Below, one piece after another: positions 3,270 to 20,457 of a stretch of 38,308 nt of DNA (within the stretch, counting starts at the first letter, position 1; every line of letters starts with the position of its first letter). Source of the stretch: Acidimicrobiia bacterium (GTDB taxonomy: Bacteria > Actinomycetota > Acidimicrobiia > Spongiisociales > ZC4RG35). Below the pieces are notes generated by a model. The model made no database searches and was not told where the DNA came from. It saw only the letters and a list, made by a program, of their open reading frames with translations. The DNA lies in assembly GCA_015488325.1 (NCBI GenBank), contig WFOA01000028.1, positions 1 to 38,308 on the forward strand, given 5' to 3'. The translations under genes and the position numbers were made by a program.

Positions 3270-3284
3270 GTCACGCGCCGCCCA

Positions 3285-3290
3285 TACACT
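3285..3290 (+). promoter_or_regulatory. -10 element of a probable leaderless promoter (secreted esterase)
   Basis: TACACT is followed by 7 nt and the ATG at 3298. No Shine-Dalgarno sequence is present, so the esterase probably has its own leaderless transcript. Confidence 0.5.
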
Positions 3291-3297
3291 GACGGCG

Positions 3298-4305
3298 ATG
3301 CGTCGCCTCCTCGCCGTCCTGGCGGTCGTCGTCGTCGCCTGTGCTCCGGCGGTTCCCGCCGAGGTCACCACCTCGAAGGCGGTGCCCTCGACGGCACCGG
3401 AGACGACGCGCCCCATGGTCGGGGCGGCGTCCTCCTCCACCACCTCCGCCGCCCCTGTCCCCTCCGTGTCGACCACCGCTGCTCCTCCCTCTCCGACCAC
3501 CTCCCCGACGACCTCCGCCCCGACGACCTCCACCACCACCGCCCGGACGTTCCCCGACGGCCGGTACCGGGGAACGGTCGGATTCGGCGACGACCTGGCG
3601 GCGGATGTCTTCGCCCCCGAGGGACCCGGCGCCTACCCGGTCGCCGTCCTCGTCCACGGTGGCGGATGGGTGGCGGGTGATCGGCGGTCGCTGTGGCCCC
3701 TCGCCGAAGGCCTCGCCGCCCGCGGTTTCGTCGCCTACACCCCCGAGTATCGGACGCTGGCCCGGGGAGGCCGCTTCCCCGTCACCGTCGACGACGTGGC
3801 CTGTGCCGTCCGCCTGGCACGCCGCGACGCCGCCCGGTTCACCTCCACCCCGGATCGGGTGGTCCTGATCGGCCATTCCGCCGGCGCCCACCTCGGCGCC
3901 CTCGTCGCCTTCGGCGGCGACGAGTTCGGCACGTCGTGTCCCGACCCGGGGGCTCAGGACGTGGTCGGCTTCGTCGGGCTCGCCGGCCCCTACGACATCG
4001 ACCGGCTGGAGCTCGTGCTCGTCCCCTTCTTCGGGACACGCCTCGCCGACGATCCCGAACCGTGGCGACGGGGGAACCCGTTCACCTACGTCACCGACGA
4101 CCTCGGGGTCCCCACCCTGTTGGTCCACGGCGAAGCCGACCCGGTGGTGCCACCGTTCTTCTCAGAGGAGCTGGCCGGAGCACTCGACGAGGCGGGGACT
4201 CCGGTCACCCTACGTCTCTTGGCCGGGGTCGACCACTCGACGGTGACCGACCCGGCCGTCGTCGGCGACCTCATCGCCGACTGGGTGGCGAGCCTCGGGC
4301 CCTGA
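3298..4305 (+). CDS. Secreted lipoprotein alpha/beta hydrolase (esterase/lipase-like)
   Basis: The first 20 residues form a lipoprotein signal (MRR, a hydrophobic core, then VVAC as lipobox), so the protein is probably anchored outside the membrane. It is followed by about 60 residues almost entirely Ser, Thr, Pro and Ala, a flexible surface linker. The catalytic domain carries LVHGGGWVAGD (oxyanion hole), IGHSAGAH (nucleophile Ser), HGEADPVVP (acid) and VDHSTV (His), a complete triad of the carboxylesterase/BD-FAE type. Total length is 335 residues. ATG 3298 is chosen because the signal peptide begins there, although the frame is open upstream through pgl. The natural substrate is unknown. 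Confidence 0.85.
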   Translation: MRRLLAVLAVVVVACAPAVPAEVTTSKAVPSTAPETTRPMVGAASSSTTSAAPVPSVSTTAAPPSPTTSPTTSAPTTSTTTARTFPDGRYRGTVGFGDDLAADVFAPEGPGAYPVAVLVHGGGWVAGDRRSLWPLAEGLAARGFVAYTPEYRTLARGGRFPVTVDDVACAVRLARRDAARFTSTPDRVVLIGHSAGAHLGALVAFGGDEFGTSCPDPGAQDVVGFVGLAGPYDIDRLELVLVPFFGTRLADDPEPWRRGNPFTYVTDDLGVPTLLVHGEADPVVPPFFSEELAGALDEAGTPVTLRLLAGVDHSTVTDPAVVGDLIADWVASLGP

Positions 4306-6929: not shown

Positions 6930-7700
6930 TCATCCCCTCCCTTCTGCCGCCGGGGCCTCGGCGGTGAGCTGCTCTGCCATCCAGGACTCGAACTCCGCCT
7001 TCTCCACCACCCGTACCGGCATCACCATGCGGGCGTGCCCGATGCCGCACAGCTCGGCGCATTGGAGGCGGAGGTTGACGTCGTCGGTGAACGTCCCGAG
7101 TTCGGTGGGGGTGACGTACACCGACGTGACCAGGCCCGGAACGGCGTCGATCTTGGTGCGGAACCCGGGGACCCAGAACGAGTGCAAAACGTCGACCGAC
7201 GTCACGTCGAAGCGGATCCGGGTGTCGACGGGCAACACGAGCTCGTCGCGGACCTCGGCCCCGTTCGGGTAGGTCACCACCCACTGCCAGCGCTGTCCTT
7301 CGACCTCGAGCACGAGGTCGGCTTCAGGGTTGGCGCGCAGTTCGGCGAGGCCCACGAGCCCCGGGTTGATGAGGATCGCCAGGGCGAGGGCGCTGGTCAC
7401 CACCAGCCAGGTGACGACCACCGGTTTCGACGTCTTGATGGGCGGTCCGTCTTCGGAGGCGTCGTTGCGACTCCTGAACCGGAAGGCGGAGTAGATCAAC
7501 ATCGCCACTACGAAGGAGAACACGGGGATGCCCAGGATGGTCAGGAGGTTGAAGGCATCGTCGATGATCTTCGCCTCTTCGGCGTACTGTCGAGGCAGGA
7601 TCTCGGTTGCGAACCAGACGGCCTCGAGGACCACCACCAGCCCCAACCAGAGCAACCCGACCCGGATCGCATCTTGCTTGTAGCCACCGCGCTCGTTCAT
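6930..7700 (-). CDS. ctaC: Cytochrome c oxidase subunit II
   Basis: This 256-residue subunit has two transmembrane helices (about residues 12-32 and 48-70; a third hydrophobic stretch at 95-115 is possible) and an extracytoplasmic cupredoxin domain. The CuA site is visible as VLHSFWVPGF and CAELCGIGHARM, giving the His, two Cys, Glu, His and Met ligands. It receives electrons from cytochrome c or a fused donor. There is no fused cytochrome c domain at the C-terminus. It is the first gene of ctaC-ctaD-COX4-ctaE. The start codon follows a promoter so closely that the mRNA is probably leaderless. Confidence 0.95.
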   Translation of the reverse strand: MNERGGYKQDAIRVGLLWLGLVVVLEAVWFATEILPRQYAEEAKIIDDAFNLLTILGIPVFSFVVAMLIYSAFRFRSRNDASEDGPPIKTSKPVVVTWLVVTSALALAILINPGLVGLAELRANPEADLVLEVEGQRWQWVVTYPNGAEVRDELVLPVDTRIRFDVTSVDVLHSFWVPGFRTKIDAVPGLVTSVYVTPTELGTFTDDVNLRLQCAELCGIGHARMVMPVRVVEKAEFESWMAEQLTAEAPAAEGRG

Positions 7701-7708
7701 GGGCCGGT

Positions 7709-7739
7709 ATTGTATAGTTCTCTCCTAACAGATATGCAA
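7709..7739 (-). promoter_or_regulatory. Promoter of the cytochrome oxidase operon, probably leaderless
   Basis: On the minus strand TTGCAT (7739-7734) is followed after 17 nt by TATACA (7716-7711), or after 19 nt by TACAAT (7714-7709). Only 8 nt separate the latter from the ctaC ATG, and no Shine-Dalgarno sequence exists. The hexamers overlap those of the oppositely directed Rrf2 promoter, so one bound regulator could control both. Confidence 0.6.
7710..7738 (+). promoter_or_regulatory. Promoter of the Rrf2-family regulator, overlapping the cta promoter
   Basis: TTGTAT (7710-7715), 17 nt, then TATGCA (7733-7738) on the plus strand. Each -35 overlaps the -10 of the opposite promoter, and together they form an imperfect inverted repeat (TTGTATA ... 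TATGCAA). A Rrf2 protein bound here would act on its own gene and on the oxidase operon. Confidence 0.45.
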
Positions 7740-7790
7740 GTTCTTAGGGACCTGGCAGCGATATCGTGCCGGAACCCACCGAGGAGCAGC

Positions 7791-8297
7791 GTGAAGATCC
7801 TTCCCACCGCCCGAACGGACTACGCGATCAGAGCGCTGATCTACCTGGCCGCGCATCCTGAGGATCGGGTGAAGGCGAGCGAGATCGCCCACGAGATGGA
7901 GATCGCCGAACCCATCCTGCGCCAGGTCATGGGCGAGCTCCAGCGGGCCAACCTGGTGGCCTCCCGCTCGGGACCCCACGGCGGCTACCGGCTGGCCCGG
8001 AACCCGGCCGACGTGACCCTCCTCGAGATCATCGAGGCGATGGAAGGCCCCACCAGCCTCCACGAATGCGCCCTTCGGGGAGGACCGTGCCACTGGGAAG
8101 ACGTCTGTGCCGTCCACAGCATCTGGTCCGAGGCCCGAGCCGCCTTCACCGAAGTGCTCGCCGCCCACACCCTCGCCGAGGTCGCCGAAGCCGACCAGCT
8201 CCTCCGCCGAGGCCTGCTCGAGATCCCGCCCGACAGTCATCGGCGACCCCGCACCGCCGAGATGACACCCCCGACGGGAACCGACGACGCACCGTAG
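7791..8297 (+). CDS. Rrf2-family transcriptional regulator with three cysteines
   Basis: This 168-residue protein has the Rrf2 winged helix at residues 1-80 (TDYAIRALIYLA, then a GPHGGYRLAR wing) followed by C-x6-C-x5-C within HECALRGGPCHWEDVC. Three cysteines in this position bind a [2Fe-2S] or [4Fe-4S] cluster in IscR, NsrR and RsrR, so it is likely a redox or nitric-oxide sensor. The divergent position relative to ctaC suggests it controls the terminal oxidase; this is an inference. The start is GTG 7791, which has GAGGAG at 7781. The C-terminal 30 residues are Pro/Arg-rich and probably disordered. It ends 2 nt from the convergent BMC-operon terminus. Confidence 0.88.
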   Translation: MKILPTARTDYAIRALIYLAAHPEDRVKASEIAHEMEIAEPILRQVMGELQRANLVASRSGPHGGYRLARNPADVTLLEIIEAMEGPTSLHECALRGGPCHWEDVCAVHSIWSEARAAFTEVLAAHTLAEVAEADQLLRRGLLEIPPDSHRRPRTAEMTPPTGTDDAP

Positions 8298-8299
8298 GT

Positions 8300-9412
8300 T
8301 CAGCGACCCGTGATCCGCTCCATCACCTTCCGGGTGAGCTCTTCGACCTCCTCGGGGTCCGCCGACCCCCGCTCCCACAGCACCTGGGTGACGGCCCTGC
8401 GGATCCGCGACTCGGTCCGCAGTGCTTCGAGGGGGTCGGGCTCGGCGGCGTTCCCGGCGGGCTCGTCGCCAGACCGCGCATCCCCGACGAGCTCGTCGAG
8501 GAGGGCCGTTCGAGCACGCACCGTCTCGGCCGCCCGATGGAGAAGCGCCATCTCCTCGGAGGTCAGTCCCAGGTCAACGATCTCCACCACACCACGCCGA
8601 CCGAGCCGTACGGGGACGCCCAGGTAGACACCCGACACCCCGTATTCGCCCTGGAGATAGGCGCAGGCGGGGACGACCCTCCCCTCGTCGCGAACGATGG
8701 CGGCCACCATGTCGGCGATCGACGCGGACGGCGCCATCCAGGCCGAACCTCGAGGTAAGAGCTGGACGATCTCGGCCCCACCGTTACGGGTCCGCTCCAC
8801 GATCTCCCCGATCCGCTCGGCGGTCAGGATCTCGGACAGCGGACGCCCCCGCACGGTCGTCAGCCGAGGGAGGGGCACCATCGTCTCCCCGTGGGATCCC
8901 AAGACGATGGCGTCCACCTCGGTGGGATGCACCCCCGTCGCCTCGGCGACGAAGTACCGGTAGCGGGACGTGTCGAGCTCCCCCGCCATGCCCACCACCC
9001 GTTCGGCAGGGAACCCGGTCACCTTCCACGTGAGGGTGGTCATCTCGTCGAGGGGGTTCGAGACGACGATGACGACGGCCGACGGAGACCGGCGGGCGAC
9101 CTGTTCGGCGACGCCGGCCACGATCTCGGCGTTCGTTCCCAGCAGGTCGGCCCGAGACTGGCCGGGTTTGCGGGGAACCCCGGCGGTGATGACAACGAGG
9201 TCGGAACCTTCGGTCGGTCCGTAGTCGGAGCCTCCGGTGATCTCGATGGTGTGGCCTCGCAGCGGCGCCGACTGGCATAGGTCGAGGGCGACCGCCCTGG
9301 CCAGACCTTCGACGACGTCCACGAGCACCAGGGACGAGGCGGTCCGGTCCTCGAGGAGGCGGAGCGCGGTGGTGGATCCCACCATCCCGGACCCGACGAT
9401 CGAGATCTTCAT
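8300..9412 (-). CDS. Malate/lactate dehydrogenase homolog with C-terminal BMC-targeting extension
   Basis: Residues 1-310 are an NAD-dependent 2-hydroxyacid dehydrogenase of the LDH/MDH superfamily: IVGSGMVGSTTA Rossmann loop, catalytic His174 in LGSHGETM, Asp147-Arg150 in LDTSR, and Arg87. Arg81 in RKPGQSR occupies the position that is Arg in malate and Gln in lactate dehydrogenases, pointing to a dicarboxylic substrate such as oxaloacetate. Unlike the family, it has about 60 extra residues. These are an acidic, Gly/Ala/Pro linker (about 315-335) and two helices, the last being VEELTRKVMERITG (356-369), which matches the motif shared by the other cargo proteins here. It is the last gene of the BMC operon, with an ATGA overlap. 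The likely role is internal NAD+ recycling inside the shell, replacing the alcohol dehydrogenase of other metabolosomes (inference). Confidence 0.85.
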   Translation of the reverse strand: MKISIVGSGMVGSTTALRLLEDRTASSLVLVDVVEGLARAVALDLCQSAPLRGHTIEITGGSDYGPTEGSDLVVITAGVPRKPGQSRADLLGTNAEIVAGVAEQVARRSPSAVVIVVSNPLDEMTTLTWKVTGFPAERVVGMAGELDTSRYRYFVAEATGVHPTEVDAIVLGSHGETMVPLPRLTTVRGRPLSEILTAERIGEIVERTRNGGAEIVQLLPRGSAWMAPSASIADMVAAIVRDEGRVVPACAYLQGEYGVSGVYLGVPVRLGRRGVVEIVDLGLTSEEMALLHRAAETVRARTALLDELVGDARSGDEPAGNAAEPDPLEALRTESRIRRAVTQVLWERGSADPEEVEELTRKVMERITGR

Positions 9413-9765
9413 GCGCCTCCTCCGTGCTCACAGCCACAACCGCATCCGAGGCGGGCCATCACCGCGGCCACCAGCTCCTCCAACCCGCCGAGACCTTCGC
9501 CCCGGGCCAGCAGCATCCTCCTGGCGACGATCCGCACCCGGGACTCCAGGGCGAGCCGCCGCACGTCGCCGCCGCCCGCCCCCGACGGGGCCGCCCGCTG
9601 CGATTCCGCCATCCCCGCCGACGTCGAGGCACCACCCAGCGACACCCCGAGGACTGCGGCCCGGTCCCGGGCGAGGGGTGTGACGATCGTCTGGTCGTCG
9701 ACGACCAGCGACGAGCCCGCCTCGGCCGCCGCCTCGACGTCGGCGACGGTGACGACCCGTCTCAC
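9409..9765 (-). CDS. Small BMC-associated protein with encapsulation-type helix and CxCxC tail
   Basis: This 118-residue protein starts at GTG 9765, which overlaps the BMC-T stop (GTGA) and has GGGAGG upstream. Residues 1-40 (VVTVADVEAAAEAG ... IVTPLARDRA) resemble a short N-terminal segment I associate with several BMC-locus proteins; I cannot confirm this by search. A Ser/Gly/Ala-rich linker follows, then a basic helix (about 65-90) and finally LEELVAAVMARLGC (95-108), the same amphipathic motif as in the other cargo proteins. It ends with Cys108, Cys110, Cys112 and His114. I do not recognise an enzymatic domain. Possible roles are cargo scaffold/assembly factor or metal/redox binding. It overlaps the malate DH homolog by ATGA. 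Confidence 0.72.
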   Translation of the reverse strand: MRRVVTVADVEAAAEAGSSLVVDDQTIVTPLARDRAAVLGVSLGGASTSAGMAESQRAAPSGAGGGDVRRLALESRVRIVARRMLLARGEGLGGLEELVAAVMARLGCGCGCEHGGGA

Positions 9766-10379
9766 GGCTCCCTCCCGGCAAGTGCCCCGAGCGCCGCGGT
9801 GGCGGCGTCCCGGGCGGTGAGGACGTCGGCTTCGCTGCCCGACACGAACAGCCGACCGTACCGACCGGCGTTGGCGACGTACACGATGTCGATGTCGGCA
9901 TGTTTCTCGGCTTCGTTGGCCGCCAGCCCCGCGTAGGCGGCCGGATACACCTCCATCACGCACAGGGTCTTGCCCGGAACGAGCAGCGAACCCTTCCTGA
10001 ACTTGTTGATGAGCTGCGCCTGGTAGGGATCGACGTTGGTGATCACCTGGCTCGAAGCCACCACCGGTCTCAGCCGATCCTCCTCGGCCACCCCCAGGTA
10101 GGCGAGGATGGCGGCGCCGGCCGCCTGCACGGCGGAGGTGTCGAACGAGTGGATCTCCAACAGCCCGAACTCCCGCTCGATGAACTGGGTCGCCGGGCGC
10201 ACCGACGCCGCCTTCAGGGCGGCGTCGGCCACCGGGAAGATCTCGTTGGACGGCGCCATCTCGACGAACAGCTCCGCCATCCCGGCGACCGGGACGTCCC
10301 CCTGGACGGTGGCACCCACGTAGGCCGCGTACTGCGGCTGCATCCGGTCGATGAACGCGTAGGCCCGGAGCTCACTCAT
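9762..10379 (-). CDS. BMC-T shell protein, double-stacking type (CcmP/CsoS1D-like)
   Basis: This 205-residue shell protein has two tandem BMC domains and forms pseudohexameric trimers. The sequence follows CcmP/CsoS1D closely: LRAYAFIDRMQPQYAAYVG at the start, ADAALKAASVRP, FIEREFGLLEIHS, SSQVITNVDPYQAQLINK and PAAYAGLAANEAEKHADI. Glu68-Arg69 corresponds to the Glu-Arg pair that gates the large central pore in CsoS1D. Such proteins stack face to face and are proposed to pass larger metabolites, which would suit a bulky N-substituted glutamate or cofactors. ATG 10379 overlaps the end of the aldehyde dehydrogenase gene by 8 nt. It is the only BMC-T in the window. Confidence 0.93.
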   Translation of the reverse strand: MSELRAYAFIDRMQPQYAAYVGATVQGDVPVAGMAELFVEMAPSNEIFPVADAALKAASVRPATQFIEREFGLLEIHSFDTSAVQAAGAAILAYLGVAEEDRLRPVVASSQVITNVDPYQAQLINKFRKGSLLVPGKTLCVMEVYPAAYAGLAANEAEKHADIDIVYVANAGRYGRLFVSGSEADVLTARDAATAALGALAGREP

Positions 10380-11856
10380 GTCGTCGTCCTCCCAACCGTT
10401 CGAGAACCCGGTGGACGAGGTCTTCCGCCATCTCGGTGCCTGTCCGTGTCGACGTGGCCATCCCCGACGGATGCTGGGATGACGACCCGAGGTCCGTCAT
10501 CTCCCGCCAGTCCCTGATCCCCCGCGCCACCCGTTTGCGGTTGATCAGATGCAACGGCCCGATGTTGTCGGCGGTGATGGTCCCGCCCCACGTGCCGGTT
10601 CCCAGCATGAACGAGGGAGGAATCCCCGCCGTCGCCCCCATGGCTCCGAACGCCGACGGAGTGTTGACCAGCACCCGGAAGGCACGCACCGCCGCCGCGT
10701 ACCGGGCCGCCACCCGTGCGTCTTCGGCCCAGATCGCCGCCGTGTGGCCATCGCCCCCGTACCGCAGCAGCTCCTGGGCTCGGGCGATCCCCTGGTCGGT
10801 CCCCTCCACCTCGTACCACTTCAGCATCGACGTGAGGATCTCCATCGACAGGGGATGGGCCCGACCGACCCCGCCGGGCCGCACGACCAGCACCTTCGTC
10901 TCCGGATCGACCCGGAACCCCGCCCGCTCGGCCAGCACCTGGGGGAACTGACCCACCGCCTCCGGTTCGATCCCCCCCTGGGGGGTGAGCACCACCGCCG
11001 CGAGCGCCTCGGTCTCGTCTTCGGTGAGGAAGCGAGCTCCCCGATCCTCGAACTCCCGCCTGAGCCGCGCCGCCATCGACCGTTCCACGATGACGGCCTG
11101 CTCGGAGGCGCAGGGGGTCCCGTTGTCGAAGGTCGAACTGGCGATCGTCCCCGAGACGCAGTCGTCGACGTCGGCGACGGACGGGTGGATGAACGACGGC
11201 ACGTTGCCCGGCCCCACCGCGTACGTGGGCTTCCCCGAGGCGTAGGCGGCCTTCACCATCGCCAGCGACCCGGTGGCCAGGACCAGATCGACCGCCCAGT
11301 GCGACCACAACTCCCGGGTCCCCGGCAGCGACACCTCGGTCATGCACTGGACCAGGTCGGCGGGCGCCCCGACCGACGCCAAGGCACCCCGCAGCACCTC
11401 GGCGGCAGCCGCCGAAGCCTCCGCGGCCCGGGGATGGGGGGCCATGACGACGGCGTTGCGGGCCTTCACCGAGATCAAGCCCTTGAAGAACACCGTCGAG
11501 ACCGGGTTGGTGGTGGGCACCAGCGCGGCGATCACCCCCATCGGCTCGGCGATCTCCACGAGGCCCGCCTCCCTGCCGGCCGCGATCACCCCCACCGTCC
11601 GCAACGGGGCGATCGCCTCGTAGACCTCGACGGCGTTGAAGAGGTCTTTGATGAGCTTGTGGTCGGCACGGCCGTATCCGGTGACGGCGACCGCCAGCTC
11701 GCTGAGTCGAGGCGCGGCATCTCGGGCGGCCTGCGACATGGCGGCCACCGCCCGATCCACATCCTCCTGGGACGCGCCCGCCCAGGCGCGCGACACCTCC
11801 CGCGCCCGGCGGGCCAGCTCCCGGGCCTGGTGGATCGAACGGAGATCCTGATCCAT
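10372..11856 (-). CDS. CoA-acylating aldehyde dehydrogenase, BMC cargo (EutE/PduP-like)
   Basis: This enzyme (494 residues) converts an aldehyde, CoA and NAD+ to acyl-CoA and NADH. The active-site Cys249 lies in TFDNGTPCASEQAV, typical of EutE, PduP and the AdhE aldehyde domain. PTTNPVST near residue 114 and GPGNVPSFI near 215 are further family motifs. Most BMC aldehyde dehydrogenases carry an encapsulation peptide; here it is at the C-terminus, after a Ser/Thr/Gly linker, as AEDLVHRVLERLGG (477-490). The frame is open far upstream, but homology begins at MDQDLRSI; ATG 11856 is 2 nt after the opine DH stop, with a GTG at 11862 as alternative. This makes the compartment a metabolosome that handles an aldehyde. 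Confidence 0.93.
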   Translation of the reverse strand: MDQDLRSIHQARELARRAREVSRAWAGASQEDVDRAVAAMSQAARDAAPRLSELAVAVTGYGRADHKLIKDLFNAVEVYEAIAPLRTVGVIAAGREAGLVEIAEPMGVIAALVPTTNPVSTVFFKGLISVKARNAVVMAPHPRAAEASAAAAEVLRGALASVGAPADLVQCMTEVSLPGTRELWSHWAVDLVLATGSLAMVKAAYASGKPTYAVGPGNVPSFIHPSVADVDDCVSGTIASSTFDNGTPCASEQAVIVERSMAARLRREFEDRGARFLTEDETEALAAVVLTPQGGIEPEAVGQFPQVLAERAGFRVDPETKVLVVRPGGVGRAHPLSMEILTSMLKWYEVEGTDQGIARAQELLRYGGDGHTAAIWAEDARVAARYAAAVRAFRVLVNTPSAFGAMGATAGIPPSFMLGTGTWGGTITADNIGPLHLINRKRVARGIRDWREMTDLGSSSQHPSGMATSTRTGTEMAEDLVHRVLERLGGRRHE

Positions 11857-11858
11857 GT

Positions 11859-13184
11859 TCACCGGTAGAAACCGAACATCCGGCACACCCCCGACTCGGC
11901 GCACTTTCCGCCCAGGGCATCCCACTCCACGTGGCGGATCATCTCCTCGGGGCTCATGCCGCCGAGGCCGAGGCTGTCGACGGTGCGACCCTCGGACCAC
12001 CAGTCGATGCCGCACATGGCGCTCGCCAGATGCACCATCGAGTCGATCGTCGGCGTCTCCACTCCGAGGGCACGACCCAGGCTCGCGATCGGCACCAGGG
12101 AGTTCGGGACGTCGTCGAGGATGTGGTTCTGGGCGAGGAAATGGCTGGGCGCGGTGAACCCCTGGTAGTAGGGGTTGCGCATGAGGGCGTCGTAGATGTC
12201 TTCGCCGACGACGTGGTAGCTCTCCCGATACCAGTCGAGCAGCGACCACACCTCCCGCAGCCCCAGCGCCCGGGCGACGGCCTGTTTCTCCCGGTCGATC
12301 TTCTCCATCACGAGACTGGCGATGGTGCGGGTCACCTGGTGCTTGTAGAACTTGAGGTCCTCGCCGGCCGCGGTGCGCTCGATCACCTGCGTGTTGAGCA
12401 TCACCGTGCCCGGATGCACCACCGGCGCCACGTTGTTCAGGCTCGTCTCCAAGACGTTCTGGGCGGGCTCGATCTGCGGGTAGAGGTCCCGCACGTACTC
12501 CATCAAGGCGTCGTTGTCGGTGGCCGGCAGCGCCGCCGCCCGCATCCGGAACTTCTCCTTCAGGATCTCGACCTTGTTCGGCCCCCGCCGTTCGGCCGCG
12601 TAGATGAACGTCTGGGTCTCCCCGAGGACGATGTTGGCCGAGCAGGCGAACCGGGTGAGGGTGCGGGCGAACTCCAGCGCCCCTCCCGTCCGACCCGGGT
12701 TGAGCAGCACCCGCTGGCCGTCTCGGAGCATCGGCGCCAGCAACGAGGCGTAGGGCCGATGGGACAGGGCGGGAGCGACCACCATGATCAGGTCCGCCCC
12801 CTTCACCGCCTCGTCGAGGCTTCGGGTGACCTTCGCCACCTTCCCGAAACCCTGCACTTCGGGTCCGATCACCTCGATCCCACCGGTCTCTTCGACCGGT
12901 GCCAGCTCCCACGAGAAGGGCGACCACAGGGTGACCTGGTACCCGAGGATGGACATGTGTCCCGCCATGGCGAGACCGCCGTTGCCACCCCCGAGCACCG
13001 ACACCTTGAGGGTGCCCGCCTTGTGGGCTCGCCGGGAGGGGTCGACCGCCCGTTCGAAAGGAACGGAGTTCGACGGCGGGGACGGCACCGAAGGAGACGG
13101 CGCCGGCTCCCGGGGAGCGGCGGTCACCCCCTGAGAGCGGAGCTCGGCGACGATCGCCTCGACGAGGTCGTCGTTGGCTGCCAT
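11859..13184 (-). CDS. Opine (octopine/nopaline) dehydrogenase-family protein with N-terminal BMC-targeting peptide
   Basis: This 441-residue protein contains a Rossmann NAD(P) domain (VSVLGGGNGGLAMAGHM from about residue 47) and an octopine-DH C-terminal domain with NNVAPVVHPG, the family's catalytic His region. Opine dehydrogenases interconvert N-(carboxyalkyl) amino acids with an amino acid plus a 2-oxo acid. The first 18 residues (NDDLVEAIVAELRS at 4-17) form an amphipathic helix followed by a Pro/Ser-rich linker to residue 46, a classical encapsulation peptide layout. It follows BMC-H by 10 nt with GGAGG upstream. It lies next to an N-alkylglutamate-type biosynthetic module, so it probably cleaves an N-substituted glutamate inside the shell to aldehyde and glutamate; this is inference, and cleavage to amine plus 2-oxoglutarate is the alternative. 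Confidence 0.88.
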   Translation of the reverse strand: MAANDDLVEAIVAELRSQGVTAAPREPAPSPSVPSPPSNSVPFERAVDPSRRAHKAGTLKVSVLGGGNGGLAMAGHMSILGYQVTLWSPFSWELAPVEETGGIEVIGPEVQGFGKVAKVTRSLDEAVKGADLIMVVAPALSHRPYASLLAPMLRDGQRVLLNPGRTGGALEFARTLTRFACSANIVLGETQTFIYAAERRGPNKVEILKEKFRMRAAALPATDNDALMEYVRDLYPQIEPAQNVLETSLNNVAPVVHPGTVMLNTQVIERTAAGEDLKFYKHQVTRTIASLVMEKIDREKQAVARALGLREVWSLLDWYRESYHVVGEDIYDALMRNPYYQGFTAPSHFLAQNHILDDVPNSLVPIASLGRALGVETPTIDSMVHLASAMCGIDWWSEGRTVDSLGLGGMSPEEMIRHVEWDALGGKCAESGVCRMFGFYR

Positions 13185-13194: not shown

Positions 13195-13485
13195 TTACTT
13201 CGTCTTGCCGAGGATGCTCTCGGTGTCCTGGTGCGGGCGTGGGATCACATGGACGCTGATGAGCTCTCCGACCTTGGCCGCTGCCGCCGCCCCGGCGTCG
13301 GTGGCCGCCTTGACGGCACCCACGTCGCCTCGGACCATGACGGTGACCAGCCCGCCACCGATCTGCTCTTTGCCCACGAGGGTGACGTTGGCGGCTTTCA
13401 CCATCGCGTCGGCGGCTTCGATGGCCCCGACCAGGCCCCTCGTCTCGATCATTCCCAGGGCGCTGTACCCCTGTGCTTCAGCCAT
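13195..13485 (-). CDS. BMC-H hexameric shell protein
   Basis: This 96-residue single BMC-domain protein forms the hexagonal facets of the shell. It has the usual [20 protein letters not shown] start, [15 protein letters not shown] in the middle and the HVIPRPH edge motif. The pore loop reads I42-G43-G44-G45, without the Ser found at this place in PduA (IGSG), so the hexamer pore may be wider or less polar. The ATG is preceded by AGGAGGAG at ideal distance, the strongest ribosome binding site in the operon, as expected for the most abundant shell component. It is the only BMC-H seen here. Confidence 0.97.
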
Positions 13486-13607: not shown

Positions 13608-13910
13608 TCACCGGCGGGCCTTGCTGTAGGTCGTACGGCCGTCGCGCTGCACCGAGTCGACGATCCCGACGACCGAGGCGTCGGTGGGGACCGATCCCAT
13701 CCCGGCCGCCTCCCGGGCCGCCGACCCGGTCGCCACGAGGACCACCTCTCCCTCCCCGGCGCCGACGGTGTCGGCGGCCACGAAGGGCTCCCCTCCCGCC
13801 TGGGGTTCCCCGTCGGTGTCGCAGGGAACGCACAGGAGCAGGGTGCTGCCCGTGAGCTGGGGGTCCTTCGCCGTCGCCACGGTGGTCCCGATCACCTTCG
13901 CCAACCTCAT
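13608..13910 (-). CDS. BMC-P pentameric vertex protein (EutN/CcmL family)
   Basis: This 100-residue protein caps the vertices of the polyhedral shell as a pentamer. It starts MRLAKVIGTTVATAKDPQLTG, the typical EutN/CcmL first strand. It contains FVAADTVGAGEGEVVLVATGSAAR and ends with a DASVVGIVDSV segment, all standard for the family. AAGGAG, overlapping the stop of the upstream glutamine synthetase-like gene, serves as ribosome binding site. With one BMC-P, one BMC-H and one BMC-T the locus has the minimal full set for a closed shell. Confidence 0.95.
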   Translation of the reverse strand: MRLAKVIGTTVATAKDPQLTGSTLLLCVPCDTDGEPQAGGEPFVAADTVGAGEGEVVLVATGSAAREAAGMGSVPTDASVVGIVDSVQRDGRTTYSKARR

Positions 13911-13923: not shown

Positions 13924-15240
13924 TCAGAAGGCTCCCAGGTACCGGTCCACCTCGACCTGGGTGACGGTGTTGTCCGGATCGTCCTCGCCGGAGTTCATGA
14001 CGAACTCGTGCTCCCGTCGGGCTTGTCCGACCAGGGTCTCGACGAGCATCGGATGCAGCAGGTCCCGAACGAGCTCCGAGGCCTCGAAACGTTCGATCGC
14101 CTCGGGGATCGTCGTCGGGAGCGGCTCCGCGTCGGTGACCTCGTACCCGTTGCCTTCGGTCAGCGGACCCGGATCCAGGCCATGGACGATGCCGTCGAGC
14201 CCGGCGGCGATCTGTCCGCCGATCAGCAGATACGGGTTGGCGTCGGCCGACCCGTCCCGCTGTTCGATCCTCACCGCGCTCGGCTCGCCTTCGATCACCC
14301 GGATCCCGACGGTGCGGTTGTCCATGCCCCAGGTGTTGTTCGTGGGACAGAACGTGTAGGGCTGGCGGCGCCGCATCGCGTTGGGATTGGGTGCCGACAG
14401 CAACGCCAGATCGGCCATGTGCCGCCGGAGGCCACCCAGGTATCGCCGACCCACCTCCGACAGCCGTCCGCCGTCGGAGAACACGTTCTCGCCGCCCTTC
14501 CAGAGGGACTGGTGGACGTGAAAACCGGAACCCGACTCCTCGGTGAAGGGTTTGGCCATGAAGGTGGCCAACATGCCGTGTTCTGCGGCGATCTCCTTCA
14601 CCGCATGGCGGAACAACAGCGCGTTGTCGGCGGCGGTGACGGCGTCGGTGTAACGGAGGTTCACCTCGAACTGACCCGGGGCGTACTCGGGGTTGGAGAC
14701 CTCCACCAGGATCCCGAACTCGGTGCAGAGGTTGCGGATGGGCCCGACGACGAACTCGAACTGTTTCGCCCGCGCCAGCCCGTAGACGTCGATGCCGACG
14801 TCGCGGGGACGCCTGGTCTCGGGGTCGAGCAGGTAGAACTCGAGCTCGGTCCCCACCATCACGTCGTATCCGAGGTCGGCGGCGCGTTCCACGGCCGTCA
14901 GCAGCGCGTTCCGGGGATCGACCGGTACCGGGGCGTGGTCGATCACCTCCTCGGAGCGGCATATCGTCAGCACCACCCCCTCCTCCCAGGGAACCTTCCG
15001 CAGCTTCCCCGGGATGGGGACGATGTGGACGTCGGGGTACCCGTTGTCGAAGTTCCCGTACGGGGTGTCCCAGATGTCACAGGTCATGTCCATCTGGAAG
15101 AGCGCGTTGGCGAGAGCCACGCCGTGGTGGGCGGTCCGCTCCCACATGTTCGCCTGCAGACGTTTGCCCCGGGCGATCCCGTTGAGATCGCCGATCGCCA
15201 GCACCACGGTGTGGGTGCCTTCGGGAAGTGTGTCGATCAC
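13924..15240 (-). CDS. Glutamine synthetase-family gamma-glutamyl-amide ligase (GmaS/GlnT/PuuA-like)
   Basis: This 438-residue protein has the GS beta-grasp start (VVLAIGDLNGIARGKRL), the catalytic core (GTELEFYLLD, FEVNLRYTDA, GSGFHVHQSLW) and the NNTWGMDNRTVGIRV and RIEQRDGSADANPYL segments. It lacks the adenylylation-site region of standard GlnA and is shorter, as in enzymes that ligate glutamate to an amine using ATP (gamma-glutamylmethylamide, -ethanolamide or -polyamine synthetases). GTG 15240 is chosen because GAGGAGGAGG lies just upstream; an in-frame ATG at 15276 lacks such a site. It follows the three glutamate-synthase-like genes, the same partnership as gmaS with mgsABC. No targeting helix is seen at either end, so it is probably cytosolic. 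Confidence 0.85.
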   Translation of the reverse strand: MIDTLPEGTHTVVLAIGDLNGIARGKRLQANMWERTAHHGVALANALFQMDMTCDIWDTPYGNFDNGYPDVHIVPIPGKLRKVPWEEGVVLTICRSEEVIDHAPVPVDPRNALLTAVERAADLGYDVMVGTELEFYLLDPETRRPRDVGIDVYGLARAKQFEFVVGPIRNLCTEFGILVEVSNPEYAPGQFEVNLRYTDAVTAADNALLFRHAVKEIAAEHGMLATFMAKPFTEESGSGFHVHQSLWKGGENVFSDGGRLSEVGRRYLGGLRRHMADLALLSAPNPNAMRRRQPYTFCPTNNTWGMDNRTVGIRVIEGEPSAVRIEQRDGSADANPYLLIGGQIAAGLDGIVHGLDPGPLTEGNGYEVTDAEPLPTTIPEAIERFEASELVRDLLHPMLVETLVGQARREHEFVMNSGEDDPDNTVTQVEVDRYLGAF

Positions 15241-15269
15241 AGCCCGTCCTCCTCCTCTCCGATCACCGG

Positions 15270-16688
15270 TCACCATGTGTACGGCCGGTCGATGCCTGCC
15301 AAGGGCACCCCGGTGAAGGCCGAAGCCTCCAGACTCAGCGCCCGCAGGTCCTCTTTCTCCAGGTTGTGGACGCTCGACTTTCCGCAGGCCTTGGCCAGCA
15401 GGCTGATCTCCATGGTCCAGGCGGTGAGCAGGCGTGCCACCCGCTCGGCCCCGGCCGCCACGTCCATCCGCTGTTCGAGCTCGGGATCCTGGGTGGTGAT
15501 CCCGACCGGGCAGCGGCCCGTGTGGCAGTGATGGCAGCGGCCCGGCGACGTGCCGAGGGCCTCGTAGTCGTCCAGGTATCGGGGTGAGTTACACCCCAAC
15601 GCCATGAGGGCGGCGAAACCGATCATCACGCAGTCGGCACCGAGGGCCAGGCATTTGGCGGCGTCGGCACCCGACCTGATCCCCCCAGCGGCGACGAGCT
15701 TCACCTCGTCGGCGAGGCCCGCCTCCTCCAAGGCTTCGCGTGCCGCCGGGATGGCCGACATGGTGGGGATCCCGGTGTGGTCCAACAGCAGTTCGGGCGA
15801 CGCCCCGGTGCCGCCCTCGGCGCCGTCGAGGACGATCACGTCGGCGCCCGCTTTGGCGGCGATCGCCACGTCCCACCGGGGCCGTGTCGCCCCCATCTTC
15901 ACGAAGATGGGAACCTGGTATCCGGTGGCCTCCCGCAACTCTTCGATCTTCACCTTGAGGTCGTCGGCACCGAGGAAGTCCGGATGGCGCACCGTGGAAC
16001 GCTGGTCCACCCCCACGGGGAGGGTCCGCATGCTCGCCACCCGTTCGGGGATCTTCATGCCCAACAGCACGCCACCCGTCCCCGGCTTGGCTCCCTGGCC
16101 GACGACGATCTCGATCCCGTCGGCCATGCGGAGATGCTCCAGGTCGAGCATGTAGCGGCTCGGCGTCATCTGGTAGACGAGGATCTTCGACGCCTCCCGC
16201 TCGTCCTCCAGCATGCCCCCCTCGCCGGTGCAGGTCATGGTGCCCACCTTGGTTGCGCCGTAGCCGAGCGCAGCCTTCGCCGAAGCGGAGAGCGCGCCGA
16301 ACGACATCGACGCGATGTAGATGGGGATGTCGAGCTCGATCGGTTGTTCCACCAGACCGGGTCGGTCACCCAGCACCGTCTTGGTGTCACAGCTCTCCCG
16401 ATATCCCTCCAGGGGCAGCCGGGTCATGGTGGCCGGAACGAACACCAGGTCGTCGAGGGTCGGGAACCGGGTGTTGAACGTGGAGAACCCCCGAATCTGG
16501 TAGCGGCCGAGCTGGGCGACGGCGTGGGCATCGGCGATGGCCTCGGGGGTCCACCGCGGCGATTTGCCTCGGTCGTAGGAGGAAGGAACCCCGGCGGGGC
16601 GACCGGGGACCGCCCCGTCGCCGAACGCCACCACGTCTTCGTCGGGCGGCCCAAAAGGGTATTCGCGGTCGTTCAGATCATCAGCCAT
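15270..16688 (-). CDS. FMN/Fe-S glutamate-synthase-like subunit (MgsC/GlxD type)
   Basis: This 472-residue protein corresponds to the FMN-binding synthase domain of GltB as a stand-alone subunit. MSFGALSASAKAALGYGA, GEGGM, GQGAKPGTGG and DGAEGGTGASP form the (beta/alpha)8 FMN and 2-oxoglutarate site. CHHCHTGRCPVGI supplies the cysteines of a [3Fe-4S]-type cluster. In N-methylglutamate synthase the homologous subunit (MgsC) works with separate amidotransferase-like and GXGXG subunits, exactly the set encoded here. The gene overlaps its upstream neighbour by 16 nt. There is no encapsulation peptide. Its electron donor (ferredoxin or NADPH) cannot be told from the sequence. Confidence 0.9.
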   Translation of the reverse strand: MADDLNDREYPFGPPDEDVVAFGDGAVPGRPAGVPSSYDRGKSPRWTPEAIADAHAVAQLGRYQIRGFSTFNTRFPTLDDLVFVPATMTRLPLEGYRESCDTKTVLGDRPGLVEQPIELDIPIYIASMSFGALSASAKAALGYGATKVGTMTCTGEGGMLEDEREASKILVYQMTPSRYMLDLEHLRMADGIEIVVGQGAKPGTGGVLLGMKIPERVASMRTLPVGVDQRSTVRHPDFLGADDLKVKIEELREATGYQVPIFVKMGATRPRWDVAIAAKAGADVIVLDGAEGGTGASPELLLDHTGIPTMSAIPAAREALEEAGLADEVKLVAAGGIRSGADAAKCLALGADCVMIGFAALMALGCNSPRYLDDYEALGTSPGRCHHCHTGRCPVGITTQDPELEQRMDVAAGAERVARLLTAWTMEISLLAKACGKSSVHNLEKEDLRALSLEASAFTGVPLAGIDRPYTW

Positions 16689-17368
16689 GCGCGTGAGTCC
16701 CTACTGTCGAAGTACCAGAGCTTCTGGGCGGACACGATCTTCTTCCAGTCCCGACCGGCGTCGTCGAGCCCCCGGCTCGCCAGCAGCTTCTCGACCGCTT
16801 CGACCTCGGCCGGTTCGGGTTCGACCACCTTGGTGTCGACGCCGAGGGAGGCGATCGGGCCCGCCACCCACACCTCGCCACCCCACAGAGAGTCGGCGCA
16901 GGCGTCCCCGGCCCCGCCGAGGGCGATGATCCTCCCGGCGTGGGCCATGAAGCCGCTCAGGTAGCCGATCCGGCCCTCGACGATGATGTCGCCGCCTTTC
17001 ATGGCGACGCCGCAACGGGGCCCGGCGTCACCCCGGACGTGGATCAGCCCTCCCCGCATCGAGGCTCCGGCGCTCATCCCGACGTAGCCTTCGACGAGGA
17101 TCTCGCCCGCCGCCATCGCCTCTCCGAGACCCCAGCCGGCGTCTCGGGTGATCTCGATGTGGGCCCCGTTGTTGAGCCCTCCGCAGTAGTAACCGACGCT
17201 GCCTTCGAACCGCACCTTCGCCCCGTCGGGCAGGCCGATCCCGAGGTTGTGACGGGAGAGGGTGTTGGTGACCACGACCTCGTTCCCGGCGGCGATGGCC
17301 GCTCGGATGTCGTCGTTGATCGCCTTGATCGGCCGGTCGCCCACCTCGACGTACGCCACCGCGGTCAT
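16673..17368 (-). CDS. GXGXG-motif glutamate-synthase-like subunit (MgsB/GlxC type)
   Basis: This 231-residue protein is equivalent to the C-terminal right-handed beta-helix of GltB. Repeated Gly motifs are visible: VGYYCGGLNNGAHIEI, GYVGMSAGASMRGG, DAGPRCGVAMKGGDIIVEG and GYLSGFMAHAGRI. It is not catalytic in GltB but has a structural role between the glutaminase and synthase domains. ATG 17368 overlaps the amidotransferase stop as ATGA. About 40 residues beyond the beta-helix (from PEPAEVEAVEK on) form a helical C-terminal tail. Confidence 0.9.
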   Translation of the reverse strand: MTAVAYVEVGDRPIKAINDDIRAAIAAGNEVVVTNTLSRHNLGIGLPDGAKVRFEGSVGYYCGGLNNGAHIEITRDAGWGLGEAMAAGEILVEGYVGMSAGASMRGGLIHVRGDAGPRCGVAMKGGDIIVEGRIGYLSGFMAHAGRIIALGGAGDACADSLWGGEVWVAGPIASLGVDTKVVEPEPAEVEAVEKLLASRGLDDAGRDWKKIVSAQKLWYFDSRDSRAWLMI

Positions 17369-18309
17369 CGCATCACCTCCACCATCCCGACGGCCCAGGT
17401 GGCCGTCTGGTCGGGACCGTCGAAGGTCCGCACCGCGACCTCCCCCGGGTAGACCTTCCGCACCGCCTGTTCTTCGGTGGCGATCGCCAGGTCGGGGCCG
17501 TCCTCCACCGCGGCGAGGGGTTTGATGGCCCAACGGTCCTTCGCCATCCCCAACCGGTCGGCGGTGGTGATGAGGTAGGTGAAGACCCCGTCGAGGGCTC
17601 GGAGGCTCCGTTCGAGGGCGGACTCCAGGTCGTGGCCTTTCGCCATCTGGTCGGAGATCCACACGGCGATGAGCTCGGAGTCGTTCTCGGTGAGGAATCG
17701 ATATCCCTTGCGGGTGAGTCGGTCTTTCAGCAGGAAGTAGTTGGTGAGCTGGCCGTTGTGGACGATCGCCACGTCGGGGAAGGGGCGCGCCCAGAACGGA
17801 TGGCTGGCGGTCGGTGACACCTTCGACTCGGTGGCCATCCGGGCGTTGGCGATGCCGTGGGTTCCGACGAAGGTGGCGACCCGGTGCTTGGCCGCCACCT
17901 CCTGGGCGGTCCCCACGTCTTTGACGATCTCCAGGGACCGACCCACCGACTGGATCTGGAATCCGCCGATGGCGTCGGCTCGGGCCACCCAGTCGGCCAG
18001 GTCGACCCGGGGTGGGGAGACGATCATCCTCACCGAGACGTGACGCTGTCCGGTGTCGTCCCACGTCGGGTCTTCCAGGAAGTCTCCGCCGCAGTCCCGC
18101 AGCACCCCGAGGAAGGTCTCCAGATCCGCCGAGAGTCGCCGGCGGTCGTCTCCGACCACCCGCACGATGTATCCGTCGTCTCGGCGCTCCCCGTAGAGGG
18201 CGAAACCCGTGGAGTCACCTCCGCGGTGGACCATCGCCTCCATCATGGCGACGAGGTCGGCACCGACGGTGCCCGGCCGCCCGAGGATCCTGCCCGCTAT
18301 CCCGCACAT
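17365..18309 (-). CDS. Class II glutamine amidotransferase-like subunit (MgsA/GlxB type)
   Basis: This is a 314-residue Ntn-hydrolase of the GATase type 2 fold, as in the N-terminal domain of GltB and in MgsA. The protein begins Met-Cys-Gly-Ile-Ala-Gly, and Cys2 becomes the N-terminal nucleophile after Met removal. This decides the start at ATG 18309, although the frame is open to 18345. GTHGIANARMATES, HNGQLTNYFLLKDRL and TENDSELIAVWI provide the glutamine-site residues. In the N-alkylglutamate setting it may act on a gamma-glutamylamide rather than glutamine. It is the first gene of the BMC operon, behind an 88-bp region with the candidate GntR operator. Confidence 0.9.
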   Translation of the reverse strand: MCGIAGRILGRPGTVGADLVAMMEAMVHRGGDSTGFALYGERRDDGYIVRVVGDDRRRLSADLETFLGVLRDCGGDFLEDPTWDDTGQRHVSVRMIVSPPRVDLADWVARADAIGGFQIQSVGRSLEIVKDVGTAQEVAAKHRVATFVGTHGIANARMATESKVSPTASHPFWARPFPDVAIVHNGQLTNYFLLKDRLTRKGYRFLTENDSELIAVWISDQMAKGHDLESALERSLRALDGVFTYLITTADRLGMAKDRWAIKPLAAVEDGPDLAIATEEQAVRKVYPGEVAVRTFDGPDQTATWAVGMVEVMR

Positions 18310-18353
18310 CGTCTCTGGGTCCCTGTCCACGAGATCGAATACCACTGAGGTTT

Positions 18354-18397: not shown

Positions 18398-18973
18398 TCA
18401 GTCGAGGTCGACCAGATGCAGGAGGAGCGAGAGCTGGTCGTCGGCTTCCTCCGGTCGGATCGGCACCGTGTAGGGCGGAAGCGGCGGGAAGTACATGGCG
18501 GTGATCGTCCCCGGCAGCGGCACGATCGTCACCAACCTCCCCTCGGGTGTGTCGACCACCTCGATCTTCTTCAACTCGGCCTTCGTCGCCAACGAGGTCG
18601 TCCGACGGTCACCGAGCCGACGGGCGAGGTCGCTCCCCGACCCTCTCTTCGTCACGAAGGCTCCCTTGTCGAACCGGTATTCGAGCTCGGTGGCTCCCCC
18701 GCCGTCCACGGGGGAGCCACGTTTCGCCACCCACTGGGTGTCGATCAGGGCACCGAACATCCTGAAGATCCCGGAGAACCCGACCTCGACCGTCAGATCC
18801 GCTCGCACCCGGACCCGGGCGTAGCGGGCGTCGGCCTCGTCGACTTCCACCCGTCCGGCACCGAAGCGCCGCACCAGGGCGCCGGTCGGAACCTCCAACA
18901 GCCGTCGGCGTCTCGACCGGTAGAGACGTTTCGCCCGACTCCTGGGCCCGAGGGGGCGCCGCGAGCCGGTCAC
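18398..18973 (-). CDS. Conserved-looking protein of unknown function, co-transcribed with the permease
   Basis: This 191-residue protein starts at GTG 18973, overlapping the permease stop (GTGA), with AGGAG close upstream. The N-terminal 25 residues are strongly basic (RSRAKRLYRSRRRRLLE). The rest alternates beta-type segments, e.g. ARVRVRADLTVEVGFSGIF, IDTQWVAKRGSP and TELEYRFDKGAFVTKRG, and ends with a Pro-rich LPPYTVPIRPEEADDQ stretch and an acidic C-terminus. There is no signal peptide, transmembrane helix or cofactor motif. I do not recognise the family. Its place between the importer and the BMC operon suggests a role in the same pathway, but nothing more can be said. Confidence 0.65.
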   Translation of the reverse strand: MTGSRRPLGPRSRAKRLYRSRRRRLLEVPTGALVRRFGAGRVEVDEADARYARVRVRADLTVEVGFSGIFRMFGALIDTQWVAKRGSPVDGGGATELEYRFDKGAFVTKRGSGSDLARRLGDRRTTSLATKAELKKIEVVDTPEGRLVTIVPLPGTITAMYFPPLPPYTVPIRPEEADDQLSLLLHLVDLD

Positions 18974-20379
18974 AGCTCCTGGTGCACCTCCTCCTCGAGA
19001 CGCGACACCACCCCAGAGGTCTTCTCGAGGGCGACGCCGACGATCGCCACGACCGCCGCCGCCCCGATCATCCACAGGGCGCGTGGCCCGAAGAAGGCAT
19101 GCCCGATGGGGCCCCCTTCTTCGATCGGATCGGCGAACGCCGCGTACCACAGGTACACGGTGACGATCAGGCCGAGGGTGGGGACCCAGAGCGGCAGCCG
19201 GAAGGGCCGCTCGACGTCGGGGTTCACGAACCGGCTCACCAGCACGATCACGTGGTAGACGACGTAGAGCAGCAACCACGTGTAGGCGGCGGTGAAGATC
19301 AGCTCGACCACGCCACCGAAGGCGATCGCCGACCACGTGTAGGCGACGGCGGTGACGAGGATCGCCACCCACGGGGTCCGGAACCGGGGATGGACCGACC
19401 CGAACCACCGGCTGAGGGGCCCGAAGAAGTGGCCGTTGCGCGAGATGCCGTAAAGGATCCGGGGCATCGAGGCGTATACGATCGTCATCGACGAGTACGT
19501 CGCCAGCACCGAGGCGATGGCCATCAGCACCTTGCCGGGCGAACCCAGCATCGCCTCACCCACGAAGAGCTGTGGGGCGTTCGGATCCACCTTGTCGATC
19601 CAGCCGGGGTCGAGGCCCCCGACGCCGATGCCCATGAGCAGCGACGTGCCGAGGATCGTGAGGAGCCCGTAGACGATGCCCTTGGGCAGGGCCCGCGCCG
19701 GGTCCCTCGTCTCTTCGGCCAGCGGAGCCACGAACTCGATACCCACGAAGCTCCAGAACGCGAAGGCCCCTCCCAGGGCGATGATCCCGCCGAAGGTCAG
19801 ATCTCCTGGGGTGAGGTTGCCCCACGACCAGCCGCCGACGTTGTTGAGCCCGAAGAAACCGAGGAGGCCGAACAGCCACCGGATGCTAAGCATGGCCAGC
19901 ACCGTGTACAGCTCGACTTTGGCCAACAGCTCGATGCCCAACAGGTTGGGGACGACGGCGAGGATCCCCAGGATGATGATCCACATCGTCAGCGAGCCGC
20001 CGCCGAACAGGCCTTGGGCGCCCGAAGCACCCGCGACCGTCTCGCCGGCGCCGGCGAACATGAACATGATGTAGAACAGGGCTCCCAGGAAGACCCCGAC
20101 GAGCGCCTTCGTCCGTTCACTGCCCGGTGTCGCCGCCGCACCGAAGTCGTAGATGGCCCCGGCCTTCGGGTAGGTCGTGGCGAGCTCGCCGGCCGACAGC
20201 CCGAGCAACAGGTTGGCGAAGAACATCGCCACCAGAGCCACCGCGAAGGCCTGGCCGGCGCTGAACCATCCCAGGAAGTCGGACACCAGGGTGCTGGCGG
20301 CCACCACCAACCCCACCCCGGCGATGAAGATGTCCCGGGTGTTCAACGCCTTGACGAGACCTTGGTCGCTCGTCGTCAT
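18970..20379 (-). CDS. APC-superfamily amino acid/amine permease
   Basis: This 469-residue membrane protein has about 12 transmembrane helices, a normal length for the APC family of proton-coupled amino acid, polyamine and ethanolamine transporters. AFWSFVGIEFVAPLAEETRDPARALPKG is the loop after helix 6 typical of the family (SF.G.E..A....E...P.R..P). ATG 20379 is used because GAGGAGGGAGG lies 5-15 nt upstream; the frame is open further upstream without support. It is probably the importer of the amine processed by the BMC pathway, because it shares the candidate operator and lies directly upstream of the operon. The substrate is not deducible from sequence alone. Confidence 0.88.
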   Translation of the reverse strand: MTTSDQGLVKALNTRDIFIAGVGLVVAASTLVSDFLGWFSAGQAFAVALVAMFFANLLLGLSAGELATTYPKAGAIYDFGAAATPGSERTKALVGVFLGALFYIMFMFAGAGETVAGASGAQGLFGGGSLTMWIIILGILAVVPNLLGIELLAKVELYTVLAMLSIRWLFGLLGFFGLNNVGGWSWGNLTPGDLTFGGIIALGGAFAFWSFVGIEFVAPLAEETRDPARALPKGIVYGLLTILGTSLLMGIGVGGLDPGWIDKVDPNAPQLFVGEAMLGSPGKVLMAIASVLATYSSMTIVYASMPRILYGISRNGHFFGPLSRWFGSVHPRFRTPWVAILVTAVAYTWSAIAFGGVVELIFTAAYTWLLLYVVYHVIVLVSRFVNPDVERPFRLPLWVPTLGLIVTVYLWYAAFADPIEEGGPIGHAFFGPRALWMIGAAAVVAIVGVALEKTSGVVSRLEEEVHQEL

Positions 20380-20423
20380 CGCTACCTCCCTCCTCGCTCT
20401 CGACCGCCCATGCGAGCGATCTT

Positions 20424-20457
20424 TGGATACAGTATGCGTCGTACAACCGCCCTGCAA
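20424..20457 (-). promoter_or_regulatory. Promoter and candidate operator of the permease
   Basis: On the minus strand TTGCAG (20457-20452), 17 nt, TACTGT (20434-20429). The -10 hexamer lies inside TGGATACAGTATGCG (20424-20438, plus-strand reading), which matches the BMC operon element at 12 of 15 positions, with all differences A/G. A repressor bound here would block the -10 directly. Confidence 0.6.

Follow-up and report, generated by a model that had tools for sequence, protein, structure and literature searches.

Do similar-looking helices at the termini of four proteins encoded in one bacterial microcompartment (BMC) operon all serve as tags for cargo loading, or are some of them receptors of such tags? 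The question is raised by a locus of an Acidimicrobiia bacterium (assembly GCA_015488325.1, contig WFOA01000028.1), of which a stretch of 38,308 nt, termed here the window, was analyzed. The operon lies on the minus strand, from position 18345 down to 8300, and encodes, in the order of transcription, GlxB-, GlxC- and GlxD-like proteins, a glutamine synthetase (GS)-like ligase, the shell proteins BMC-P and BMC-H, an opine dehydrogenase (opine DH), an aldehyde dehydrogenase (AldDH), a CcmP-like BMC-T shell protein, a small protein and a malate dehydrogenase (MDH) (Table 1). No PF00936 (BMC-domain) genes other than those of this operon were found in the source genome. The original prediction held that opine DH, AldDH, the small protein and MDH are four cargoes carrying one shared amphipathic encapsulation peptide (EP). 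The analysis reported here indicates that short terminal helices probably load opine DH and AldDH into the compartment; the small protein and MDH are probably best read as adaptors that grip EPs, not as EP-tagged cargo.

All four peptides are present and fit the pattern proposed for them, those of opine DH, AldDH and MDH at exactly the residues predicted (Table 1). The peptide of the small protein had been numbered 95-108, which implies a start four codons upstream, and occupies residues 91-104 when the start at 9753 is used. As a background, we used 554 proteins (219,870 residues) from open reading frames of the fetched loci, none of which matched the regular expression. Because this expression had been fitted to the data after the fact, the termini in the window were scored out of sample with a matrix derived solely from the orthologous peptides in other genomes. 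The N-terminus of opine DH scored 16.3 bits and the C-termini of the small protein and of AldDH scored 13.0 and 11.5, respectively; in each of these three cases, none of the 554 background proteins scored as high. The four terminal peptides are not a product of chance, and for opine DH and AldDH, both ahead of the entire background, the assignment as EPs stands. The C-terminus of MDH scored 2.2, a value equaled or exceeded by 113/554 background proteins, and MDH thus lacks the EP profile of the system; its C-terminus is not a single helix resembling the EPs found here. The GS-like and glutamate synthase-like proteins had been predicted to lack EPs, and no EP-like terminus was detected by the matrix in the window for GS, GlxB, GlxC or GlxD (243, 102, 31 and 467 of the 554 background proteins as good, respectively), the termini of their counterparts in sibling loci giving the same picture on reading. 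The hydrophobic moment was also considered as a discriminator and was discarded as uninformative, the helix of the small protein lying at the 59th percentile despite its high matrix score; the opine DH peptide of the window lies at the 81st and four of its seven ortholog peptides at the 94-98th.

Sibling loci were identified by opine DH searches and synteny checks, which yielded seven more loci sharing the enzymes and shell genes of the window, eight in total. According to their metagenome-assembled genome records, L035 (genome G057) and L036 (G490) belong to Acidimicrobiia, L037 to Thermoleophilia and L089 to Actinomycetes; the others are L124 (G708), L038, labelled Desulfovibrio sp., and L039, labelled Bacillota, whose contig ends early. 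The opine DHs of these loci are ~43-79% identical. A comparison of orthologous loci had been proposed as a check of the four-cargo motif, and its outcome differs between the two enzymes. The N-terminal helix and linker of opine DH are present in 8/8 loci, though weakly in L036; in L124 the helix is doubled, two tandem EP-like helices, DLAAAIAAEVGG and DPLAAAIEREIGG, being encoded at about 9815-9968. AldDH has its C-terminal helix in four loci (the window, L037, L089 and L124) and lacks it in L035, L036, L038 and L039. Orthologues without the helix had been named beforehand as an outcome that would refute the shared motif, and for AldDH this outcome occurred in 4/8 loci.

The opine DH helix is limited to members found in a BMC context. 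Non-BMC homologues begin near residue 58 of the window protein; in 72 of 98, no more than about 25 residues precede the core, and in the remaining 26, read by eye, no EP followed by a linker was found. In genome G631, which encodes no PF00936 protein at all, GlxB, GlxC, GS and opine DH are nevertheless found together, and this opine DH, starting with MAQKKSTKRSGDK, enters directly into the core without an N-terminal extension. Genes for aldehyde:ferredoxin oxidoreductase (AFOR) come next, in place of AldDH. Another N-terminal fused domain was seen on some of the non-BMC homologues (L053, L061, L067, L080), with stretches such as ...LGRINGxxLQLKILxRLxHL...

A different relationship emerged for the small protein. 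A profile of four orthologues matched residues 3-100 of Escherichia coli EutQ (hhalign E 5.4e-8), and EutQ ranked first among 580 targets, with a score of 51.9 versus 28.2 for the runner-up. EutQ(1-99) is an adaptor whose helices H1/H2 bind the shell and whose helices H3/H4 bind EutC and EutE through their EPs, EP binding being abolished by the substitutions L89A or V93A (PMC12487888). The AlphaFold2 (AF2) model of the small protein (mean pLDDT 66.8) has helices at residues 3-12 and 26-35, a disordered stretch at 42-61, and helices at 61-84 and 88-104. Like EutQ(1-99), the protein thus has four helices, H2 and H3 being joined by a flexible linker. The equivalents of EutQ L89/V93 are Leu94/Val98 in the small protein and Leu359/Val363 in MDH, which fall within the motif of the original prediction; the EutQ numbering was verified, all five named contact residues being matched in the E. 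coli protein. The peptide singled out in the small protein is helix H4. No Pfam or NCBIfam match was obtained for the small protein, so that the cupin domain (PF06249) of full EutQ is absent. At least one separate hairpin protein is encoded in 7/7 complete loci, and L037, L089 and L124 encode mini-proteins consisting of the hairpin alone.

Two features of the small proteins were noted in addition. Sub-threshold matches to E3_binding (PF02817; E 0.03-0.09) fall on H1/H2 of the small proteins of L035, L036 and L038, hinting at a resemblance of these helices to the peripheral subunit-binding domain found in 2-oxoacid dehydrogenase complexes. In the window, H4 runs into a Cys-rich tail, CGCGC (residues 103-109, positions 9427-9447), and the orthologues of L035, L036 and L037 have the tails GGRCGC, GNCACG and LCCGDCACD; such tails possibly bind metal or form disulfides.

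The C-terminal tail of MDH belongs to the same module. Its profile matched the hairpins of the small and mini-proteins with E 2.8e-11 (0/200 shuffles as good), and in the AF2 model its two helices follow a disordered stretch at residues 311-324. Profiles were required for this result, as BLASTP found no significant match between MDH and the small protein (hairpin E 1.2). MDH is linked to EutQ because the full-length small protein matches EutQ and MDH shares the hairpin of the small protein; the direct comparison of the hairpin with EutQ H3/H4 is weak and hence was never used alone. The Pro/Ser/Gly-rich linker that had been described for all four proteins is found in opine DH and AldDH; in the small protein and MDH, low-confidence linkers precede an upstream helix of the same module that had been missed (residues 61-84 and 327-347, respectively). 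The notion of one motif shared by four cargoes does not survive these results: the MDH tail fails the EP matrix, and both MDH and the small protein have a common two-helix hairpin as their tail. MDH is present in 5/8 loci; in L035 and L036 it has no tail and carries instead an N-terminal H1/H2-like piece and one more helix-like stretch. In L038 and L039, an RnfC/SLBB-type (PduS-like) protein adjoining BMC-T (L038:13328-14695; L039:8500-9106) stands in the stead of MDH. The window MDH was also considered as the sole malate dehydrogenase of its genome; another gene of the lactate/malate dehydrogenase family, on contig 83, ruled this out.

Combined, these results make a metabolosome with two-part loading a rather probable explanation of the locus. 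Opine DH, through its N-terminus, and AldDH, through its C-terminus, would be carried into the lumen by amphipathic EPs on flexible linkers. The small adaptor would bridge cargo and shell, with H1/H2 on the facets formed by BMC-H/BMC-T and H3/H4 gripping EPs, and MDH would join the cargo core by binding EPs through its own fused hairpin; we infer these binding roles from the homologies described above. In the cytosol, the GS-like ligase and GlxBCD would make N-alkylglutamate from an imported amine in the way that GMAS and NMGS (mgsABC) make N-methylglutamate (PMC6237917). In the lumen, oxidation of this compound by opine DH would yield glutamate and an aldehyde, AldDH would turn the aldehyde into acyl-CoA, and MDH, or the RnfC-like protein in L038 and L039, would re-oxidize NADH. 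The route from N-alkylglutamate through the aldehyde to acyl-CoA is put forward tentatively, as possible rather than probable. That opine DH releases an aldehyde is suggested by shell-less G631, since the same enzymes are paired there with AFOR in place of AldDH, and two swaps fit the pathway: AldDH for AFOR where there is no shell, and MDH for an RnfC/SLBB-type protein in L038 and L039. The split of the pathway into an encapsulated and a cytosolic half, as originally predicted, is reasonable since GS and GlxBCD lack EPs, although proteins without a peptide may also be loaded by piggy-backing.

Several observations weigh against this explanation. The stand-alone hairpin proteins of L037, L089 and L124 lack H1/H2, and shell binding there would therefore have to come from elsewhere. 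H4 of the small protein also scores like an EP, which is compatible with a cargo tag. Between the isolated H3/H4 hairpin and EutQ H3/H4 the match is weak (E 0.003, probability 11%), and the hairpin of MDH, taken by itself, gives no clear match to EutQ (39/200 shuffles as good). The AldDH helix is absent from four loci, and in L036 the helix of opine DH is weak. On the metabolic side, there is no phosphotransacylase among the annotated operon genes (the genome beyond the operon was not searched), and both the substrate and the direction assigned to opine DH are putative. Some of these points recur in other readings of the helices. That all four are equivalent EPs, each binding the shell, with the small protein merely one more cargo, would account for the matrix score of the small-protein helix and for the single expression that covers all four helices and is absent from the background, and EPs are known at either terminus; we consider it unlikely, given that MDH fails the EP matrix, that the small protein and MDH have a two-helix module in common rather than a single helix, and that the small protein lacks an enzyme domain and matches a known adaptor. 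It is quite improbable that the hairpin of the small protein and MDH only self-associates, in core condensation or in contacts of the MDH oligomer, with neither specific EP binding nor shell bridging. EPs themselves do self-associate into bundles and drive condensation (PMC12339742), and the weak match of the isolated hairpin to EutQ would suit such a role; against it, the small protein matches EutQ over its full length, the shell-binding H1/H2 included, and retains the L89/V93 equivalents. The incomplete distribution of the AldDH helix and the weak opine DH helix of L036 could also suggest ordinary unconserved tails, arising by chance or as an artefact of lineage. This is hardly credible in view of the out-of-sample matrix, of the conservation of the helix among opine DHs as divergent as those compared here and of its absence from shell-less homologues; for opine DH, the matrix and the shell-less comparison refute it.

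The chemistry leaves room for another reading, in which opine DH runs in the opposite direction, or yields an amine and 2-oxoglutarate (or oxaloacetate) on cleaving its substrate; the compartment would then handle a keto acid, and the aldehyde used by AldDH would come from elsewhere. Known opine DHs, the 1bg6 relative among them, join an amino acid with a keto acid, and the lumenal MDH retains the malate-type substrate arginine (PRKPGQSR). We nevertheless regard this alternative as somewhat unlikely, because AldDH and AFOR alternate next to the same set of opine DH, GS and GlxBC, which points to an aldehyde product. The closest solved relative of opine DH is N-(1-D-carboxyethyl)-L-norvaline dehydrogenase (CENDH, 1bg6), which it matches over the whole core (profile E 1.6e-80). 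His202 and Asp297 are the catalytic residues of CENDH; His257 and Asp358 of opine DH align with them. An N-terminal extension corresponding to the peptide is missing from the solved CENDH chain, and the enzyme is not known to be compartmented.

Among described systems, the EPs of the locus resemble the classical ones of PduP, PduD, EutC and EutE, being terminal amphipathic helices of ~15 residues, N- or C-terminal, set off by a disordered linker; they differ in residing on opine DH, for which no mention as a cargo was found in the BMC literature searched. Type I BMC AldDHs are known to carry their EP at the C-terminus (PMC8217296). The window AldDH shares with this type (IPR013357, EUT2-like) the acylating character, the C-terminal peptide and TIGR02518 as best NCBIfam match, but it scores under the cut-off of that model, and the peptide is missing from half of the loci. 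Unlike EutQ, the small protein stands alone, without the cupin/acetate-kinase domain, in an opine DH locus rather than an eut or GRM locus, and the hairpin alone, or an H1/H2-like half, is fused to MDH. The GS-type ligase and the GlxB/GlxC/GlxD-type subunits recall the N-methylglutamate pathway, to which they are equal by composition only; no N-methylglutamate dehydrogenase is encoded in the locus, and an NAD-type opine DH in a BMC takes its place. In PVM and MIC1 metabolosomes, a lactate/malate dehydrogenase is the putative core alcohol dehydrogenase (PMC4207490). These loci likewise combine AldDH with an enzyme of that family, whereas the window MDH passes a malate dehydrogenase model and bears the adaptor hairpin, and the operon has no sugar aldolase. 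The lack of a phosphotransacylase among the annotated operon genes sets it apart from the canonical core of aldehyde dehydrogenase, alcohol dehydrogenase and phosphotransacylase.

Opine DH is not mentioned in the BMC literature searched, and the main texts of the 2014 and 2021 BMC catalogues, whose supplements were not covered, name no type with opine DH and GS/GlxBCD; provisionally, the compartment is apparently of an undescribed kind. It is possible, though short of probable, that it represents a new type of metabolosome, with an NAD-dependent opine DH as the signature enzyme releasing an aldehyde from N-alkylglutamate made in the cytosol, and with cargo loading through peptides and their receptor, the EutQ-type hairpin that grips the peptides being separated from the cupin enzyme and fused to the NADH-recycling dehydrogenase of the core. 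It would be a compact compartment with three shell proteins and a clear cargo list, and amine catabolism via N-substituted glutamates was found described for no BMC in the same literature. The locus further suggests that peptide receptors of the EutQ type serve BMC assembly as a portable module, and would extend the EutQ adaptor mechanism past Eut and GRM loci. Similar-looking helices may be tags or receptors of tags, and a mix-up between them would mislead the engineering of cargo loading.

Table 1. Coordinates of the operon features and of a neighboring permease in the window
Feature	Position	Strand	Basis or remark
GlxB/MgsA-like class II glutamine amidotransferase	17365..18345	-	PF13537/PF13522
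GlxC/MgsB-like GXGXG protein, no EP	16673..17368	-	PF01493
GlxD/MgsC-like FMN glutamate-synthase domain protein, no EP	15270..16688	-	PF01645
GS-like ligase (GS type III / gamma-glutamylputrescine synthetase-like), no EP	13924..15276	-	
BMC-P (EutN/CcmL) vertex protein	13608..13910	-	PF03319, 105.4 bits
BMC-H shell protein	13195..13485	-	PF00936, 104.6 bits
Opine DH (PF02317), 441 residues	11859..13184	-	closest solved relative 1bg6 (CENDH)
Opine DH N-terminal EP NDDLVEAIVAELRS, residues 4-17	13134..13175	-	ortholog-trained matrix, sibling loci
Opine DH Pro/Ser-rich linker up to Rossmann core, residues 18-57	13014..13133	-	sequence; Pfam/PDB matches begin at residues 55-60
Acylating AldDH, EutE/AdhE-type relative, 494 residues	10372..11856	-	TIGR02518 470 bits, under 620 cut-off
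AldDH C-terminal EP AEDLVHRVLERLGG, residues 477-490	10387..10428	-	matrix; sibling loci
BMC-T shell protein, CcmP-like (double-stacking type)	9762..10379	-	
Small protein, 114 aa, probable stand-alone EutQ(1-99)-like shell-cargo adaptor without cupin domain	9409..9753	-	hhalign, AF2
Small-protein H1 + H2 (residues 3-12, 26-35), predicted shell-binding part	9649..9747	-	AF2; homology to EutQ H1/H2 (PMC12487888)
Small-protein H3 + H4 (residues 61-84, 88-104), predicted EP-binding hairpin	9442..9573	-	AF2; EutQ L89/V93 equivalents
Small-protein peptide LEELVAAVMARLGC, inside H3/H4 hairpin	9442-9483	-	
MDH, 370 residues	8300..9412	-	TIGR01763 375.5 bits, over 351.85 cut-off
MDH C-terminal H3/H4-type hairpin, residues 327-347 + 353-368	8309..8434	-	hhalign, AF2
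MDH peptide VEELTRKVMERITG, residues 356-369, overlapping C-terminal hairpin	8306-8347	-	
APC amino-acid permease	18970..20457	-	PF13520; TIGR00909-type

Further observations concern the genes of the operon and their surroundings. The true start of GlxB is probably the internal MCGIAG. GlxD of L038 (about 7590-9128) and of L039 (about 2786-4174) has an N-terminal ferredoxin-like stretch, CxxCxxCxxxCP, which suggests an electron donor. An FAD-dependent DAO-type amine oxidase (N-methyltryptophan oxidase/sarcosine oxidase-like) lies beside two loci (L034:1220-2584; L124:2981-4126), as another hint of N-alkyl amino acid chemistry. Permeases of a similar TIGR00909 type also flank L035 and L038, and GntR/FCD regulators are found close to several of the opine DH BMC loci. 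In the window, a gene for an Rrf2-type regulator (7725-8297, plus strand), which may sense redox state or Fe-S, is convergent with the end of the operon; beyond the permease and outside the operon, the minus strand encodes another aldehyde dehydrogenase together with an aldolase of the DeoC family at 22679-25105. Second BMC gene clusters are present elsewhere in sibling genomes (G057:C63, G490:C17, G527:C20, G529:C160, G708:C77), and shells or adaptors might be shared with them.

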